From IMG/VR virus record IMGVR_UViG_3300028198_000257, positions 1 through 48,459 of that record: a stretch of DNA of 48,459 nucleotides, one strand, 5' to 3'. Made by a program: the position numbers and the translations under genes. Below the pieces are notes generated by a model, which had not been told where the DNA came from, did no database searches, and saw only the letters and a program-made list of their open reading frames with translations. The DNA comes from a virus. Below, one piece after another: positions 19,657 through 47,493 of the stretch; the stretch's first letter is position 1, and each line of letters opens with the position of its first letter.

Positions 19657-22584
19657 ATGAGTGATATTCTAACATATAAACCAATATCCGTCCCTAATGG
19701 CTTAGTCATAGATTTTGGTATGCCTACAAGTGCAGGCAATATGCTTCTGACAGAAATTGTCACTGGCTCTACAGGTGCGTTAGAAGCCACAGACAAAGCG
19801 AATAAACTCGCGGCATCTGTAGGACCGTATTGGCTAGCAAATTCACCAGAAAATCTAGGAATTATTCGCCTGTTCTTCTCTGGAGAAGGTGCCGCCTCGG
19901 GCGTGAATGTATCAGAATTTGAGCAATACTTTGATGGAGAAATCTACGAGGTTGTCACGAATGTTTCGGTACTTAGTTCTTTTGTAGAAAAATATTATGA
20001 AATATCTACGTTTGATAAGCAAGTCTTACTAGGCAAAGAATTTCTTTCCTATACTCATAAGTCAGCAGAGAACCCTCGTAATTTTACTGAAACTCACGGC
20101 ACAGTATCAGACCCATCTAAAGACTTAAACGGAGTTCCATATATCACTTTGTCGTGGGATAGCATCACTACTCAACATTGTTCTGACCCGGCTTATACAA
20201 ATCAAGGTTCTTGTGAGGCTTCTTCAATGGGTGGATATTGTAGAGAAGTAGACACTTTTCCTGCCCATTGTTCTGACCCGGCATTACTTACTGAACCAAC
20301 CTGTACTTGGACAGGATGTTCTGACCCACAGTTTACAAATCCTACTGATTGCCAAGCCTCAGGATGTTCTGACGGAATATCAGCAAATCCTACGGCTTGT
20401 GCGGCCGCAGGCTCTTGTGATACTGACCCAACAACAAATATTACACAGGCTCTTTGTCTGGCGGCATCTGGAGTGTGGACTTTCGAGACTTGGACTTATC
20501 CTTCTACGTGGACTTATCCTTCTACGTGGTATCCTTTAGTGACAGACCAAAAAGGTCCTGTTATGTGTGTCAGGAAGAATGACGAAGAACTAGGGCTTAT
20601 GGAAGTTCAATTTAATCCATCAAGTATCAGTTCTCATTGTCTAGGTTCTGGTGGAAACAATGGTGGAAAATGTAAGTACTCCGTGAACAATGATGAAACT
20701 GCTAGTTGGAATCATTATAACTCAAATGCTACTAAAGAATGGTGTATGGAAACAACCCAGACAGTGGGTGGATGGAATCACTTATTCTGGGCTTGGTTCG
20801 ATGATGATAATACTTTTAATACAATAGACAACAACTGGTTGCCAATGGGTCCCACCACGTCTATGTGGAAACAATACAATATAATGACTTCCCCTACACC
20901 ACATTTCGTTCCGGGAAAACATATAGAGCAAACAAGTAATTCAATAACAATTCTTGCTACTGATAATCATAATGGTTATGGAGATTTTTCTGCTGTCGGA
21001 CAAGCGGTTCATCCTTGGTGGATAACAAATACGTTTGATTTTGAAAACCCAGTTCCTGAGTATGTTCCTACTTCTGTTACGACTTATGAGTGTTCAGACA
21101 CAACTGATACCTGTTCAGATGGAGTAACGATTACACAGGCGGCCTGTGAGGCCGTTCCTGCTACTTGGACAGTAGTAACACACACTAATCAAACGGATTG
21201 TGAAAATGCGGGATTTACGTGGGACGGAACAACTGTAACAACGTGGAATACAGTATGGGACACATACGAACACGATGTCAAAATAGAAATAGACGATTAT
21301 ATAACACAAGGATTTCCGCCACACGGATTTGCTGGTACTACTGCTAGTTTGACTCAGCCAATGATGAATTTCGGATATTCTGACCCAACAAATACTGAAC
21401 ACAATCCTTTGATACGTTTCTTAGCAGTACAGCAAAATTATTTTGTGACGGGTAGAACTTTCTGTACTCCAGACAGATATAGGATATATCGTTCACCTGC
21501 TTGGTTCGATGGAACTTATCATCATTCTGATTCAGACCACATACGTGGTATATGGACATTAGCGGGCGAGATACCTCATACTGACGATACCGGATATATG
21601 TATTTTGCCGATGACAAACAAGAGTTATTGAGACTGGGAATAAAAAAACAGGAACACATCTATTATAAAATGACGGCTGTTTGGGACAGATGGGAATGGA
21701 AACAAGGGATAGATTATACTAGATGGAAAATTAGTCCAAATAAATGGGACCCTGCTTATAATGGTAATAATTCATTTTCAACTTTGTACAATGCAGGCTA
21801 CGGTTACTGCTCCGATGGCGGTAATTCGGGTTACTCCACTTGTGTCAATGCAGGGTGGTGTGATGGCGGTGGCTCTAACGGACAGGGAAATAGTGCCTAC
21901 AATGGTAATCCGAGTGGTTGTACATCTACAGGTGGTGGTAGTTGGAATAACGGACACTGCCCATCTCATTGTGATGGAAGTGGAAATTTAGGTTATTCTG
22001 GAACCGAAGAATGGCTTTGTACACTTGATTTCGGAAATTGGATGGAATGTCAAAGTAGTTCTTGGGGAAATTACACATACACATATGCAGGCAACACTTG
22101 GCAAACTAACGCCATTGACCAACAATATTCAGCAAAGGCAGTAATACTTGATGATAATACAAATAAGCGGTCACATAGAATAAAAGGATATTTTAAAGCA
22201 CAATCGACAGAAACGTATACATTCAGAGTAGTAGGAGATGACTCCATCTATCTGTGGATAGGAACAACGAGCCAGAATCCAACACAAGTTGAAACGAGTG
22301 TTACAGCAAACAACGCCATCGCATCGGCTCCCGGTTCTCATCCAGACGTTAGTAACTCTGGGACAATAAGTATGATAGAAGGTGAAATATATCCTATTGT
22401 CTTATATAATGGGAATCACTATGGAAACCATACTTGTCATTTGTATTGGTCTACTCCTACGATAGCAGAACAATCAAATGGCGCAGATATATTCCACAAA
22501 GAGCAAACTTTTCATACAAATGATGGCCAGGACAATGTAGAGGGTCACCCAAGTGTAGAAGTATGGAGTTGGTTCAATACTTAA
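19657..22584 (+). CDS. Large Cys-rich tail-fibre-like adhesin with PA14 domain, 975 aa
   Basis: Probable virion surface protein for host binding. The N-terminal 160 residues form a unique beta-rich domain. Residues about 170-270, 495-535 and 710-780 carry repeats of the form C-S-D-P-x(4)-N-x(3)-C with following Trp or Cys residues. The C-terminus (about 820-960) matches a PA14-type carbohydrate-binding domain, with F-K-A-Q-S-T-E-T-Y-T-F and the signature G-D-D-S-I-Y-L-W-I-G. Trp, Asn, Thr and Gly are very frequent. Two identical 18-base units at 20491-20526 encode a doubled W-T-Y-P-S-T. Cys-rich extracytoplasmic repeats are unusual for a cytoplasm-assembled virion. Start is decided by the late promoter just upstream. 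Confidence 0.8.
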   Translation: MSDILTYKPISVPNGLVIDFGMPTSAGNMLLTEIVTGSTGALEATDKANKLAASVGPYWLANSPENLGIIRLFFSGEGAASGVNVSEFEQYFDGEIYEVVTNVSVLSSFVEKYYEISTFDKQVLLGKEFLSYTHKSAENPRNFTETHGTVSDPSKDLNGVPYITLSWDSITTQHCSDPAYTNQGSCEASSMGGYCREVDTFPAHCSDPALLTEPTCTWTGCSDPQFTNPTDCQASGCSDGISANPTACAAAGSCDTDPTTNITQALCLAASGVWTFETWTYPSTWTYPSTWYPLVTDQKGPVMCVRKNDEELGLMEVQFNPSSISSHCLGSGGNNGGKCKYSVNNDETASWNHYNSNATKEWCMETTQTVGGWNHLFWAWFDDDNTFNTIDNNWLPMGPTTSMWKQYNIMTSPTPHFVPGKHIEQTSNSITILATDNHNGYGDFSAVGQAVHPWWITNTFDFENPVPEYVPTSVTTYECSDTTDTCSDGVTITQAACEAVPATWTVVTHTNQTDCENAGFTWDGTTVTTWNTVWDTYEHDVKIEIDDYITQGFPPHGFAGTTASLTQPMMNFGYSDPTNTEHNPLIRFLAVQQNYFVTGRTFCTPDRYRIYRSPAWFDGTYHHSDSDHIRGIWTLAGEIPHTDDTGYMYFADDKQELLRLGIKKQEHIYYKMTAVWDRWEWKQGIDYTRWKISPNKWDPAYNGNNSFSTLYNAGYGYCSDGGNSGYSTCVNAGWCDGGGSNGQGNSAYNGNPSGCTSTGGGSWNNGHCPSHCDGSGNLGYSGTEEWLCTLDFGNWMECQSSSWGNYTYTYAGNTWQTNAIDQQYSAKAVILDDNTNKRSHRIKGYFKAQSTETYTFRVVGDDSIYLWIGTTSQNPTQVETSVTANNAIASAPGSHPDVSNSGTISMIEGEIYPIVLYNGNHYGNHTCHLYWSTPTIAEQSNGADIFHKEQTFHTNDGQDNVEGHPSVEVWSWFNT
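20491..20526 (+). repeat. Tandem 18-bp repeat, two copies
   Basis: Two perfect head-to-tail copies of an 18-base unit beginning TGGACTTATC inside the adhesin gene, encoding W-T-Y-P-S-T twice. A partial third copy (TGG) follows. Probably a recent slippage event. Confidence 0.85.
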
Positions 22585-45491: not shown

Positions 45492-45520
45492 TTGACAAAC
45501 CCTTGGACTTACAGTATAAT
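45492..45520 (+). promoter_or_regulatory. Consensus sigma70 promoter for a leaderless HD-hydrolase mRNA
   Basis: Perfect TTGACA (45492-45497), 17-bp spacer, perfect TATAAT (45515-45520), AGTAGT, then ATG at 45527, which is the expected +1. Confidence 0.9.
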
Positions 45521-45526
45521 AGTAGT

Positions 45527-46129
45527 ATGAGTGAGAAAATGACATTACAATTGATTGAAAAAGCAGAAAAGTTCGCTACAGAGGCCCACAAAGGCCAGAT
45601 GCGTAAGGGTGGCAAAGATGTACCGTATATAACCCACCCACTAGCCGTCGCCGACATTCTGAAGTCAATCAACTCACCAACAGAAATTGTTATTGGTGGG
45701 CTTCTCCACGATGTGGTAGAAGATACAGACAAGACACTCGAAGAAATCGGTGAGTTGTTTGGAAAGCAGGCTATGACTATTGTTGATTTTGTGACAGAGA
45801 AAGATACAATGTATCCTGTCAAAGGAATTCCTCGAGAGAAGAGTTGGAAATCACGAAAAGTCGAATACATATATCGAATTAAAGATGCTCCGTATCAGGC
45901 AGTTATTGTTGCCGCGGCTGACAAGTTACACAACTTGAGGGACACCTTCGCAGACTACAAGGAACACGGTGATGGTGTTTGGAAGATGTTTAATAGCCAG
46001 AAAGAAAGCCAGTGGTGGTACTATTCCACGCTAATATCAGTTTTTCATAAGCGTGAGGTACCAGAGGTTCTTCTGGATGAGATGAGAATGTTATTGTCTA
46101 AGATACACGAACGGGTCCTAGACGATTAA
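45527..46129 (+). CDS. Stand-alone HD-domain (p)ppGpp hydrolase-like protein, 200 aa
   Basis: Matches the hydrolase half of RelA/SpoT and the small alarmone hydrolases (MESH1-like). H-K-G-Q-M-R-K-G-G and Y-I-T-H-P-L (His37) are followed by L-L-H-D-V-V-E-D (His61, Asp62 metal ligands; Glu65-Asp66) and A-A-D-K-L-H-N-L-R (Asp134). No synthetase, TGS or ACT domain is attached. It would degrade the stringent-response alarmone and keep host ribosome and nucleotide synthesis active. Its own consensus promoter gives a leaderless mRNA starting at the ATG. Confidence 0.92.
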   Translation: MSEKMTLQLIEKAEKFATEAHKGQMRKGGKDVPYITHPLAVADILKSINSPTEIVIGGLLHDVVEDTDKTLEEIGELFGKQAMTIVDFVTEKDTMYPVKGIPREKSWKSRKVEYIYRIKDAPYQAVIVAAADKLHNLRDTFADYKEHGDGVWKMFNSQKESQWWYYSTLISVFHKREVPEVLLDEMRMLLSKIHERVLDD

Positions 46130-46133
46130 CTGT

Positions 46134-46141
46134 TATAAATA
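46134..46141 (+). promoter_or_regulatory. T4-type late promoter upstream of the tmRNA locus
   Basis: Exact TATAAATA just after the HD-hydrolase stop. A late transcript from here would run through the 23-residue gene and both tmRNA pieces to the hairpin at 46699-46739. Confidence 0.65.
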
Positions 46142-46181
46142 CTCAACAAGTAGTTACTTTAACAATTTTAAGGAGAACTAG

Positions 46182-46253
46182 ATGAAGCCCTGGATGATGT
46201 ATATGGGTATGTTCCTAGCAGGTTGGGGAGTAGCAGGTTTTATGTATCACTAG
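46182..46253 (+). CDS. Very small membrane peptide, 23 aa
   Basis: AAGGAG lies 6 bases before the ATG, and a late promoter is upstream. The peptide is almost wholly hydrophobic with five Met and two Gly, long enough for one membrane helix. It ends just before the tmRNA acceptor piece. Function unknown. Confidence 0.5.
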   Translation: MKPWMMYMGMFLAGWGVAGFMYH

Positions 46254-46255
46254 AA

Positions 46256-46323
46256 ACAAAAACAGCGTAAAGTTGTAAGTGGAGATATTCAAGACGAGGG
46301 TGCGACTCCCTCCATCTCCACCA
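46256..46323 (+). ncRNA. ssrA: tmRNA, acceptor piece of a circularly permuted two-piece tmRNA
   Basis: Holds the 3' half of the tRNA-like domain. T-arm stem GAGGG (46296-46300)/CCCTC (46308-46312) with 7-base loop TGCGACT, acceptor 3' strand CATCTCC (46313-46319), discriminator A, and encoded CCA (46321-46323). CATCTCC pairs with GGGGATG at 46556-46562, with the single G.U at position 3, which is the alanyl-tRNA synthetase identity pair. TATTCAA (46286-46292) pairs with TTGGATA (46575-46581) as the long P2-type helix. The second T-loop base is G, not T, a deviation. The 5' end of this piece is not visible in sequence and is set approximately. Confidence 0.85.
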
Positions 46324-46348
46324 TAAGAACACTGTAGGAGAATGTGAG

Positions 46349-46543
46349 TTGGAAATAGTTTGGCATATATTATTAACGGTATGTTTGAATGGGTATTCAA
46401 GTTGTTTGAAACAGGATGTCGAACACTTCAAAGATGAGGCAACCTGCGAAAAACAACTAAAAATGTACCGAGAAATGCCAACAGACGGTCATTGGGAATC
46501 TGTCTCTTATGACTGTAAACCACTCAATGCAGTAGAGGCATAG
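46349..46543 (+). CDS. Small exported protein lying between the two tmRNA pieces, 64 aa
   Basis: TTG start with AGGAG 7 bases upstream; no in-frame ATG near. A hydrophobic N-terminus (I-V-W-H-I-L-L-T-V-C-L) is followed by C-E-K-Q-L and a final Y-D-C-K-P-L. The protein at 47565 has the same length and plan, which supports a real gene. Its stop is 12 bases before the 5' end of the tmRNA coding piece. Function unknown. Confidence 0.55.
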   Translation: MEIVWHILLTVCLNGYSSCLKQDVEHFKDEATCEKQLKMYREMPTDGHWESVSYDCKPLNAVEA

Positions 46544-46555
46544 TGTTTTTATGAT

Positions 46556-46740
46556 GGGGATGATTTAGGTTCGATTGGATAGTCAAAGTTTATAATCGCT
46601 CGTGAACGTATACAAATCACGTAAACTTTGTATAAATAAAATTAACTGACAATGTTAATTACGCACTAGCGGCCTAGTATCGCTAGTTGAGGATTCCCGA
46701 GGGGTTACCTTATTACCAAATAACCCCTCCCATATTTTTG
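46556..46740 (+). ncRNA. ssrA: tmRNA, coding piece with proteolysis tag
   Basis: Starts GGGGATG-ATTTAGG-TTCGA, the conserved tmRNA 5' motif (acceptor strand plus D-loop). The nested stem CAAAGTTTA (46584-46592)/TAAACTTTG (46622-46630) with inner CGTG/CACG lies before the tag. The tag frame ends T-D-N-V-N-Y-A-L-A-A with TAG at 46675-46677, very close to the E. coli tag ending N-Y-A-L-A-A. A 7-base hairpin ACTAGCG (46665-46671)/CGCTAGT (46681-46687) encloses the tag stop as helix 5 does in E. coli. A GAGGGGTTA/TAACCCCTC stem plus T-run ends it. The resume codon is not certain. Confidence 0.9.
46699..46739 (+). terminator. Hairpin and T-run ending the tmRNA coding piece
   Basis: Nine-base stem GAGGGGTTA (46699-46707)/TAACCCCTC (46721-46729), then TTTTT at 46735-46739. 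Confidence 0.8.
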
Positions 46741-46814
46741 TTTTCTGCCCACTGACTACAAGGCAGAAGAAGAGTTTAAAAAACCGTGGTCATAGGTTGA
46801 AGGAGTTATAACCA

Positions 46815-46925
46815 ATGTCGGAGAATGAAAGTGTTGTCAACGAAATCATTACGATTTATACCGCAGCCATCATTTCTTGTCAAGGCGTTACTCCTGAGAT
46901 AAGGGGACACCTAGTAATAGAGTAA
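46815..46925 (+). CDS. Very small peptide, 36 aa
   Basis: AAGGAG lies 9 bases before the ATG. Short amphipathic sequence with one Cys (I-I-T-I-Y-T-A-A-I-I-S-C). Between the tmRNA and hsp20, no motif recognised. The following 136 bases up to hsp20 show nothing but a small GGTTG/CAACC hairpin. Confidence 0.4.
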   Translation: MSENESVVNEIITIYTAAIISCQGVTPEIRGHLVIE

Positions 46926-47061
46926 AAATCTTTACCCCCAATGGTTGTTTACGGTGCAACCACCGAATTCGATGATGCCCAATGGGATTATCGAATAAGG
47001 AGAGGTTCTTAATTAGAAGGCCTCACAATATAATCTTGCTTAACTATAAGGAGAAATAGCA

Positions 47062-47493
47062 ATGACTAGAAACTTAACAACTCGTAACGAGTTTTTTGAC
47101 CCTTGGATGCACCAATCTTTTGGATTGGATAACATCTTTAATGCCCTTCAGCAGTTCGATAGAAATCCACCAGCAAAGTACCCACCACATAACATCATTA
47201 GAAATGGTGACACATATGTGTTGGAATTCGCTTTGGCAGGATGGACTGAAAAAGAAATTACTGTAGAACTTGAGAAGAATATCTTGAGGGTAACCGGGCA
47301 GAAAAGCGACTCGGACAGTTCAGAAGAACAATTTGTTCATAGGGGAATTGCTAACCGCAGTTTCCAAAGTCAATTCACAATAGGTGATAACATCGAAATA
47401 GTCGGTGGTGATTTAAAGGATGGTGTGTTGACGATTAATATGAATATCGTGATTCCTGAAGAGGATAAACCTAGAACTATTAAAATTTCTTAA
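47062..47493 (+). CDS. hsp20: Small heat-shock protein Hsp20
   Basis: ATP-independent holdase chaperone with an alpha-crystallin domain. N-terminal P-W-M-H-Q-S-F-G-L-D-N-I-F resembles IbpA-type proteins. The domain runs from about residue 40 (N-I-I-R-N-G-D-T-Y-V-L-E-F-A-L-A-G-W) through V-H-R-G-I-A-N-R-S-F-x-x-x-F to L-K-D-G-V-L-T-I, with terminal P-R-T-I-K-I-S. 143 residues. AAGGAG is 8 bases before the ATG. hsp20 is a characteristic gene of marine T4-like phages. A strong terminator follows. Confidence 0.95.
   Translation: MTRNLTTRNEFFDPWMHQSFGLDNIFNALQQFDRNPPAKYPPHNIIRNGDTYVLEFALAGWTEKEITVELEKNILRVTGQKSDSDSSEEQFVHRGIANRSFQSQFTIGDNIEIVGGDLKDGVLTINMNIVIPEEDKPRTIKIS

Follow-up and report, generated by a model that had tools for sequence, protein, structure and literature searches.

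Protein genes nested in the intervening sequence of permuted two-piece tmRNA genes in marine T4-like phages

Permuted tmRNA is usually understood to mature as two RNAs, with the spacer between them thrown away. The tmRNA locus of a marine phage described here raises the question of how a single molecule could be both translated and matured. The window, i.e., the whole stretch of 48,459 nucleotides that was analysed, comes from a marine virus of bacteria and, judging from its gene content, is part of a T4-like phage. It encodes a family-B DNA polymerase, UvsX, a primase, a DnaB-like helicase, both T4-type topoisomerase II subunits, a recombination exonuclease, a ligase, NrdA and NrdB, the last of which was less than 60% identical to that of any phage in the annotated collection. 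A 975-aa protein with a C-terminal GLEYA/PA14-like domain is encoded among the replication genes (19657–22584), and no PHROGs match was obtained for it.

Rfam and ARAGORN agreed that the locus is a genuine permuted two-piece tmRNA gene (Table 1). The permuted model RF04321 (tmRNA_permuted) matched over its complete length (model positions 1–213) at 78.5 bits with an E value of 1.7e-13 and a gathering cut-off of 47, and ARAGORN reported a tmRNA* at 46231–46768 with the tag DNVNYALAA. Both results support the identification made in an earlier sequence-only reading of the window. The elements named in that reading were also recovered: a CCA-ended acceptor/T-arm piece with the T-stem GAGGG/CCCTC, an acceptor stem of seven base pairs in which only pair 3, known as the alanine identity pair, is a G.U, a P2 pairing of seven base pairs including one G.U, a tag ending in N-Y-A-L-A-A-stop (46648–46677 as read by ARAGORN), and a helix-5-like hairpin of seven base pairs at the stop. 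That is, the two pieces are joined by an acceptor stem with G3.U70 and CCA, a T arm and P2. In the predicted precursor fold, the acceptor stem and T arm were present, with a z-score of -4.1 against shuffled sequences. The covariance-model check that the reading had proposed held for the permuted model; in contrast, the alpha_tmRNA model RF01849 gave no match at its gathering threshold in the window. The RF01849 cut-off was reached in the phages Melnitz (L002) and Mosig (L003).

In related phages, tmRNA genes were located with a finder that looked for a T arm followed by CCA and for a 5' acceptor strand able to pair with it; seven pairs and G3.U70 were obligatory. Compensatory acceptor changes, which the reading had expected among related phages, were found (GGGGATG/CATCTCC, GGGGTCG/CGACTCC, GGGGCTG/CAGCTCC, GGGCCTG/CAGGTCC and GGGGGCG/CGCCTCC); because the finder imposed the seven pairs and G3.U70, the acceptor columns lend support without being independent covariation evidence. 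The statement that no phage example is well described is out of date, as 53 two-piece phage tmRNAs have been reported, including 50 in phages from marine or aquatic settings; the same paper describes one in the Methylophilales phage Melnitz (PMC9004378). What the reading had missed is the content of the intervening sequence (IVS), which, on the sequence evidence given below, is a protein gene and not a spacer.

Table 1. Features of the tmRNA locus and its surroundings, in positions of the window.
Feature	Positions	Strand	Basis or remark
Permuted tmRNA gene, IVS included	46264–46677	+	Rfam model span; ARAGORN
Acceptor piece	46286–46323	+	Sequence, covariance-model alignment, fold
P2 5' strand TATTCAA	46286–46292	+	Within acceptor piece
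T arm	46296–46312	+	Stem GAGGG/CCCTC
Acceptor 3' strand CATCTCC	46313–46319	+	Sequence, covariance-model alignment, fold
A + CCA	46320–46323	+	CCA gene-encoded, 46321–46323
Intervening sequence (IVS) of 232 nt, not part of mature tmRNA	46324–46555	+	From CCA end to 5' GGGG
Closing helix 5' strand UAAGAACACUGU	46324–46335	+	12 bp with 46540–46551; shuffle p 0.003; MFE fold
Shine-Dalgarno-like AGGAG	46336–46340	+	Just apical to closing helix; predicted P(unpaired) 0.94 in precursor
Nested gene, family F1, 64 aa, TTG start, TAG stop	46349–46543	+	Homology, alignment, purifying selection in nested clade
Closing helix 3' strand AUAGUGUUUUUA	46540–46551	+	Overlaps TAG stop of nested gene; covariation in relatives
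UGAU linker	46552–46555	+	Precedes mature 5' end; conserved in permuted tmRNAs of phages and in many bacterial ones
Coding piece 5' end	46556–46581	+	Sequence, covariance-model alignment; conserved GGGGAUGA..GGUUCGA motif
Acceptor 5' strand GGGGATG	46556–46562	+	Within coding piece
P2 3' strand TTGGATA	46575–46581	+	Within coding piece
Tag reading frame (T)DNVNYALAA-stop	46645–46677	+	ARAGORN start 46648; tag start uncertain
Hairpin around tag stop, helix-5-like	46665–46687	+	ACTAGCG/CGCTAGT, 46665–46671 with 46681–46687, 7 bp
Hsp20 small heat-shock protein gene	47062–47493	+	PF00011, phrog_432; next gene downstream of tmRNA

Upstream of the tmRNA, the window encodes a small HD_4 hydrolase (45503–46129) similar in sequence to (p)ppGpp hydrolases (PDB chains 7qoe and 7qoc, MESH1 and the RelA/SpoT HD domains). 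Together with the tmRNA and the Hsp20 gene, it may form an alarmone, ribosome-rescue and chaperone cluster. The Hsp20 gene adjoined the tmRNA in four relatives (L004–L007), and the HD gene, tmRNA and Hsp20 gene occurred together in L007. A 23-codon open reading frame (ORF) with a good ribosome-binding site was also noted at 46182–46253, ending just before the acceptor piece.

The IVS of the window carries a real small protein gene, as judged from homology, selection and shuffling. In bacterial permuted tmRNA genes, the IVS had a median length of 30 nt and a maximum of 71 nt and contained no gene (n = 79 loci), compared with 232 nt here. The ORF of the window, which belongs to a family that we call F1, begins 8 bases downstream of AGGAG and matched gene 85 of Melnitz over its full length (44% identity, tblastn E value of 1e-13). 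The 23-member family alignment contained 17 invariant residues, four of which are Cys, and the TTG start of the window was aligned with the ATG of the others. Shuffling the window IVS 5000 times produced a 64-codon ORF in 15 cases, and the pooled pN/pS of the nested F1 clade was 0.27; the window copy itself was 44–56% identical to its relatives, with synonymous sites near saturation against all of them, which limits the precision of a selection estimate for that copy by itself. A chance ORF was thus ruled out by homology, selection and shuffles. No significant match to F1 was found in Pfam or PHROGs. AlphaFold predicted a beta-beta-alpha-beta arrangement (best pLDDT 83.6; about 50 for the other four models), and Foldseek with this model returned no hit with E ≤ 0.001 in the PDB or the viral set and no convincing fold match. 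A bacterial origin of F1 was considered and set aside, as no relative turned up when 84,980 genomes of bacteria and archaea were scanned for peptide patterns, an approach that detects close relatives only.

We then located F1 in related phages; the contig counts given here and below are lower bounds from pattern scans of a sequence collection and do not form an unbiased census. Scanning with the Melnitz protein yielded at least 80 marine-type phage loci. Structural search with a frame-by-frame check placed F1 strictly inside the tmRNA IVS in the window and at least 20 other contigs, and inspection by eye added L087. In these other strictly nested contigs, the IVS measured 202–205 nt and the UGA stop ended 1 base before the first G of the tmRNA; the corresponding distance for the window gene is 12 bases. 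F1 preceded the T arm of the tmRNA in at least 38 loci, usually by 67–68 nt and otherwise by about 485–546 nt, and Melnitz gene 85 is located directly upstream of the Melnitz tmRNA. For the remaining F1 loci among the matches listed, no tmRNA was detected by structural search. A scan for close relatives by T-arm sequence returned only four contigs, all found before. All nested loci of F1 and of the families F2–F5 described below were on metagenomic viral contigs, and the sole isolate group with F1, that of Melnitz, has the gene in the upstream position.

Several F1 copies were located elsewhere. In L033 (3913–4283), L058 (1443–1887) and L026 (3910–4189), F1 followed a tRNA-Thr gene, and in L033 and L058 a tRNA-Leu gene came immediately after it, a layout that resembles tRNA punctuation. 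An F1 copy in L048 (4007–4189) and L095 had the nested-type C-terminus S-V-S-L and a UAA stop with no surrounding tmRNA; the same contig bears a separate permuted tmRNA, and the gene has possibly left the IVS.

At least four further unrelated families under purifying selection, as estimated from aligned sequences, are nested in the IVS of other phages, sometimes with two genes per IVS. In L004–L006, the IVS is taken up by F2 (53 aa), with a dN/dS of 0.06 from one pair. The NrdB proteins of L004 and L005 were 85–90% identical to that of the window phage, and L004–L006 adjoin the same Hsp20 gene. L005, with an NrdB 90% identical to that of the window, carries F2 instead of F1, indicating that the IVS content changed between close relatives. 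F3, a hydrophobic protein of 38 or 83 aa, was nested in at least L104, L162, L172 and L449–L453 (dN/dS 0.20 from one pair). F4 (77–79 aa) was nested in at least 19 contigs among at least 26 relatives (pairwise pN/pS 0.11–0.14); in L354 and L355, it sits shortly before the tmRNA. F5 (68–69 aa) was nested in at least 11 contigs (pairwise pN/pS 0.08–0.22) and was upstream of the tmRNA in L380. The IVS measured 388 nt in L357–L359 and 443 nt in L378–L379, with two ORFs each. An unannotated ORF, F6 (MFKWL...KIPKYLSG), was observed in Melnitz (L002, 3286–3469) and in L008, L010, L012–L018, L020 and L111. F6 starts in the IVS, crosses the expected RNase P site without a prior stop and extends over the first 42 nt of the coding piece, which would make the processed IVS a nonstop mRNA. 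The IVS part of F6 had a pooled pN/pS of 0.27. The selection figures for F1–F6 indicate that these are protein-coding genes, which annotation had hidden inside tmRNA features. An assembly artefact was ruled out for the nested arrangement, as numerous contigs assembled from separate samples show it.

In phage permuted tmRNA genes, the bases following CCA pair in a fixed register with bases ending 4 nt before the mature 5' G, and this helix of about 12 bp, which played no part in the tmRNA finder search, closes the IVS. When 38 distinct loci were aligned without gaps, changes on both sides were observed in 13 of 13 pairs, 90.1% of cells were paired compared with 33–55% when the partner was slid, and none of 500 shuffles reached any of five measures. 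Among 15 nested sequences, 10 of 13 pairs had changed on both sides and 91.8% of cells were paired. Nested genes of other phages (F1, F2 and short F3) use the UGA of the UGAU linker that follows the helix as their stop codon. Alphaproteobacterial permuted tmRNA genes often have the same IVS-end pairing and UGAU linker with a much shorter IVS. The helix is also present in IVSs without genes, suggesting that its primary role is probably processing. In the simplest history, a processing hairpin, which is short in alphaproteobacteria, would have come first, and its loop would later have been enlarged around a small phage gene equipped with a ribosome-binding site and a stop of its own. In L007 (5391–5524), the IVS had no convincing ORF and its ends formed an unbroken 14-bp helix.

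We consider it probable that the locus yields a working two-piece tmRNA and that its precursor doubles as the mRNA of the nested gene, so that one RNA would potentially be both messenger and ribosome-rescue RNA. The acceptor piece, IVS and coding piece would be transcribed in this order as one RNA; a single transcript is likely because the parts are on the same strand and tightly spaced. No sigma-70-like promoter was found at 45900–47100, although phage promoters may differ. The IVS would be removed by RNase P and by tRNA 3' processing (tRNase Z), as proposed for permuted tmRNA (PMC3985003). The two pieces would then pair to form an alanine-accepting tmRNA that works with host SmpB, and the template for translation of the nested gene may be the unprocessed transcript or the released IVS of about 230 nt.

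Alternatively, the IVS may simply be a tolerated insertion site in a compact genome, the nested gene being tied to the tmRNA by position alone; we hold this as possible, with some reservation. The nested families are unrelated and are swapped between close relatives, and F1 also adjoins ordinary tRNA genes (L026, L033 and L058), as would be expected of passive nesting. Small genes are often kept among tRNA genes in phages. However, the helix keeps a fixed register, the UGAU linker is reused as a stop (F1, F2 and short F3), and Shine-Dalgarno-like sites are enriched inside the helix; these three features suggest adaptation to the site.

That enrichment bears on a further reading, a switch between translation and maturation, which we regard as doubtful. 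The helix would hide the ribosome-binding site so that the tmRNA matures, whereas an initiating or terminating ribosome would melt the helix and delay processing. Where the ribosome-binding site lies in the helix, each transcript would give either protein or tmRNA first, and the two outputs would hence be coupled. Among the loci listed, the first 11 nt of the IVS contained a Shine-Dalgarno-like 4-mer in 14 of 21 nested and 2 of 50 non-nested cases (Fisher p 4.5e-8, with related sequences counted as independent). In the F1 clade whose proteins end in S-M/V-S-L and in F3, the ribosome-binding site AAGGA is inside the closing helix, and its predicted P(unpaired) in F1 and F3 was 0.001–0.04 in the precursor compared with 0.4–0.8 without the 3' strand. 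In all strictly nested copies of this clade, the last codons, S-M/V-S-L-stop, form the 3' strand of the helix; elsewhere among the F1 copies listed, this ending occurred only in L048 and L087, and L048 was the only one with the ending and no tmRNA detected around it. However, these predictions were made without pseudoknots or co-transcriptional folding, and the sites of F4 and F5 are apical or at the helix end. In the window, hiding of the Shine-Dalgarno sequence by the helix was ruled out, as the site lies immediately apical to the helix and is predicted to be open (0.94). The presence of the helix in gene-free IVSs also points to processing and away from a switch as its primary role.

A broader version, which we consider rather improbable, is that these precursors are dual-output RNAs in which the IVS is a gene cassette site with expression tied to tmRNA maturation or activity, giving ArfA-like feedback. 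The helix would hide the ribosome-binding site, and the RNase P cut would leave a mini-mRNA ending 1 nt past the stop (F1, F2 and short F3) or, for F6, a mini-mRNA without any stop. Ribosomes on such mini-mRNAs would be potential substrates of the same tmRNA.

The tag of the window copy begins in an unusual way. Its C-terminus, ...NYALAA-stop, fits a proteolysis signal with a hydrophobic end; counting back the usual 10 codons from the stop would make ACT (Thr) the resume codon, in place of an Ala codon. One extra base, an A near 46644, was present upstream of the tag compared with the relative L007; tagging could be impaired as a result, or the base could be an assembly error in a single contig. 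That the window tmRNA is decaying and no longer tags, being kept as a processing scaffold for the nested gene, would agree with the unusual ACT codon, the one-base shift and the missed RF01849 threshold but is very unlikely, as the acceptor stem, G3.U70, T arm, CCA, P2 and in-frame N-Y-A-L-A-A-stop are intact and the relatives have intact tags.

Returning to the dual-use precursor that we favour, phage permuted tmRNA itself was already known, whereas no description of a protein gene in a tmRNA IVS was found in the open-licence literature, including a 2025 tmRNA database paper (PMC11915505). In these phages, selection acts on a protein gene in the supposed spacer, a place that unrelated genes have filled repeatedly. 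The closest known counterparts are the bacterial permuted tmRNAs of RF04321, which have the same order of acceptor piece, IVS and coding piece, the same G3.U70 acceptor, encoded CCA and P2, and a tag ending in ALAA, but a short and gene-free IVS. RF04321 models the IVS as unpaired, whereas the phage loci have a covarying helix that is absent from current tmRNA models. Melnitz and Pelagibacter phage Mosig (PMC9004378) are, like the window phage, marine T4-like phages with a permuted ssrA. In Melnitz, F1 also adjoins the tmRNA but lies upstream of it, and the IVS contains F6, which reaches into the coding piece, instead of F1. Melnitz has a glutamine riboswitch downstream of the tmRNA, whereas an Rfam search of the window found none.

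Genes inside tmRNA genes that are removed at maturation are also known from a tmRNA group I intron with a homing endonuclease and from the tRNA-Ala in an IVS (PMC11915505); among the bacterial permuted forms in that paper, one IVS holds a tRNA-Ala and one a repeat. Unlike these cases, the window has no intron, and small phage protein genes of several families occupy a processed IVS. Finally, arfA is expressed from a nonstop mRNA made by RNase III and is controlled by tmRNA (reviewed in PMC3985003). In both systems, RNA processing near the end of a small ORF may place ribosomes near an mRNA 3' end; however, nested F1 retains its stop, and only F6-type ORFs, as in Melnitz, cross the expected cut site.
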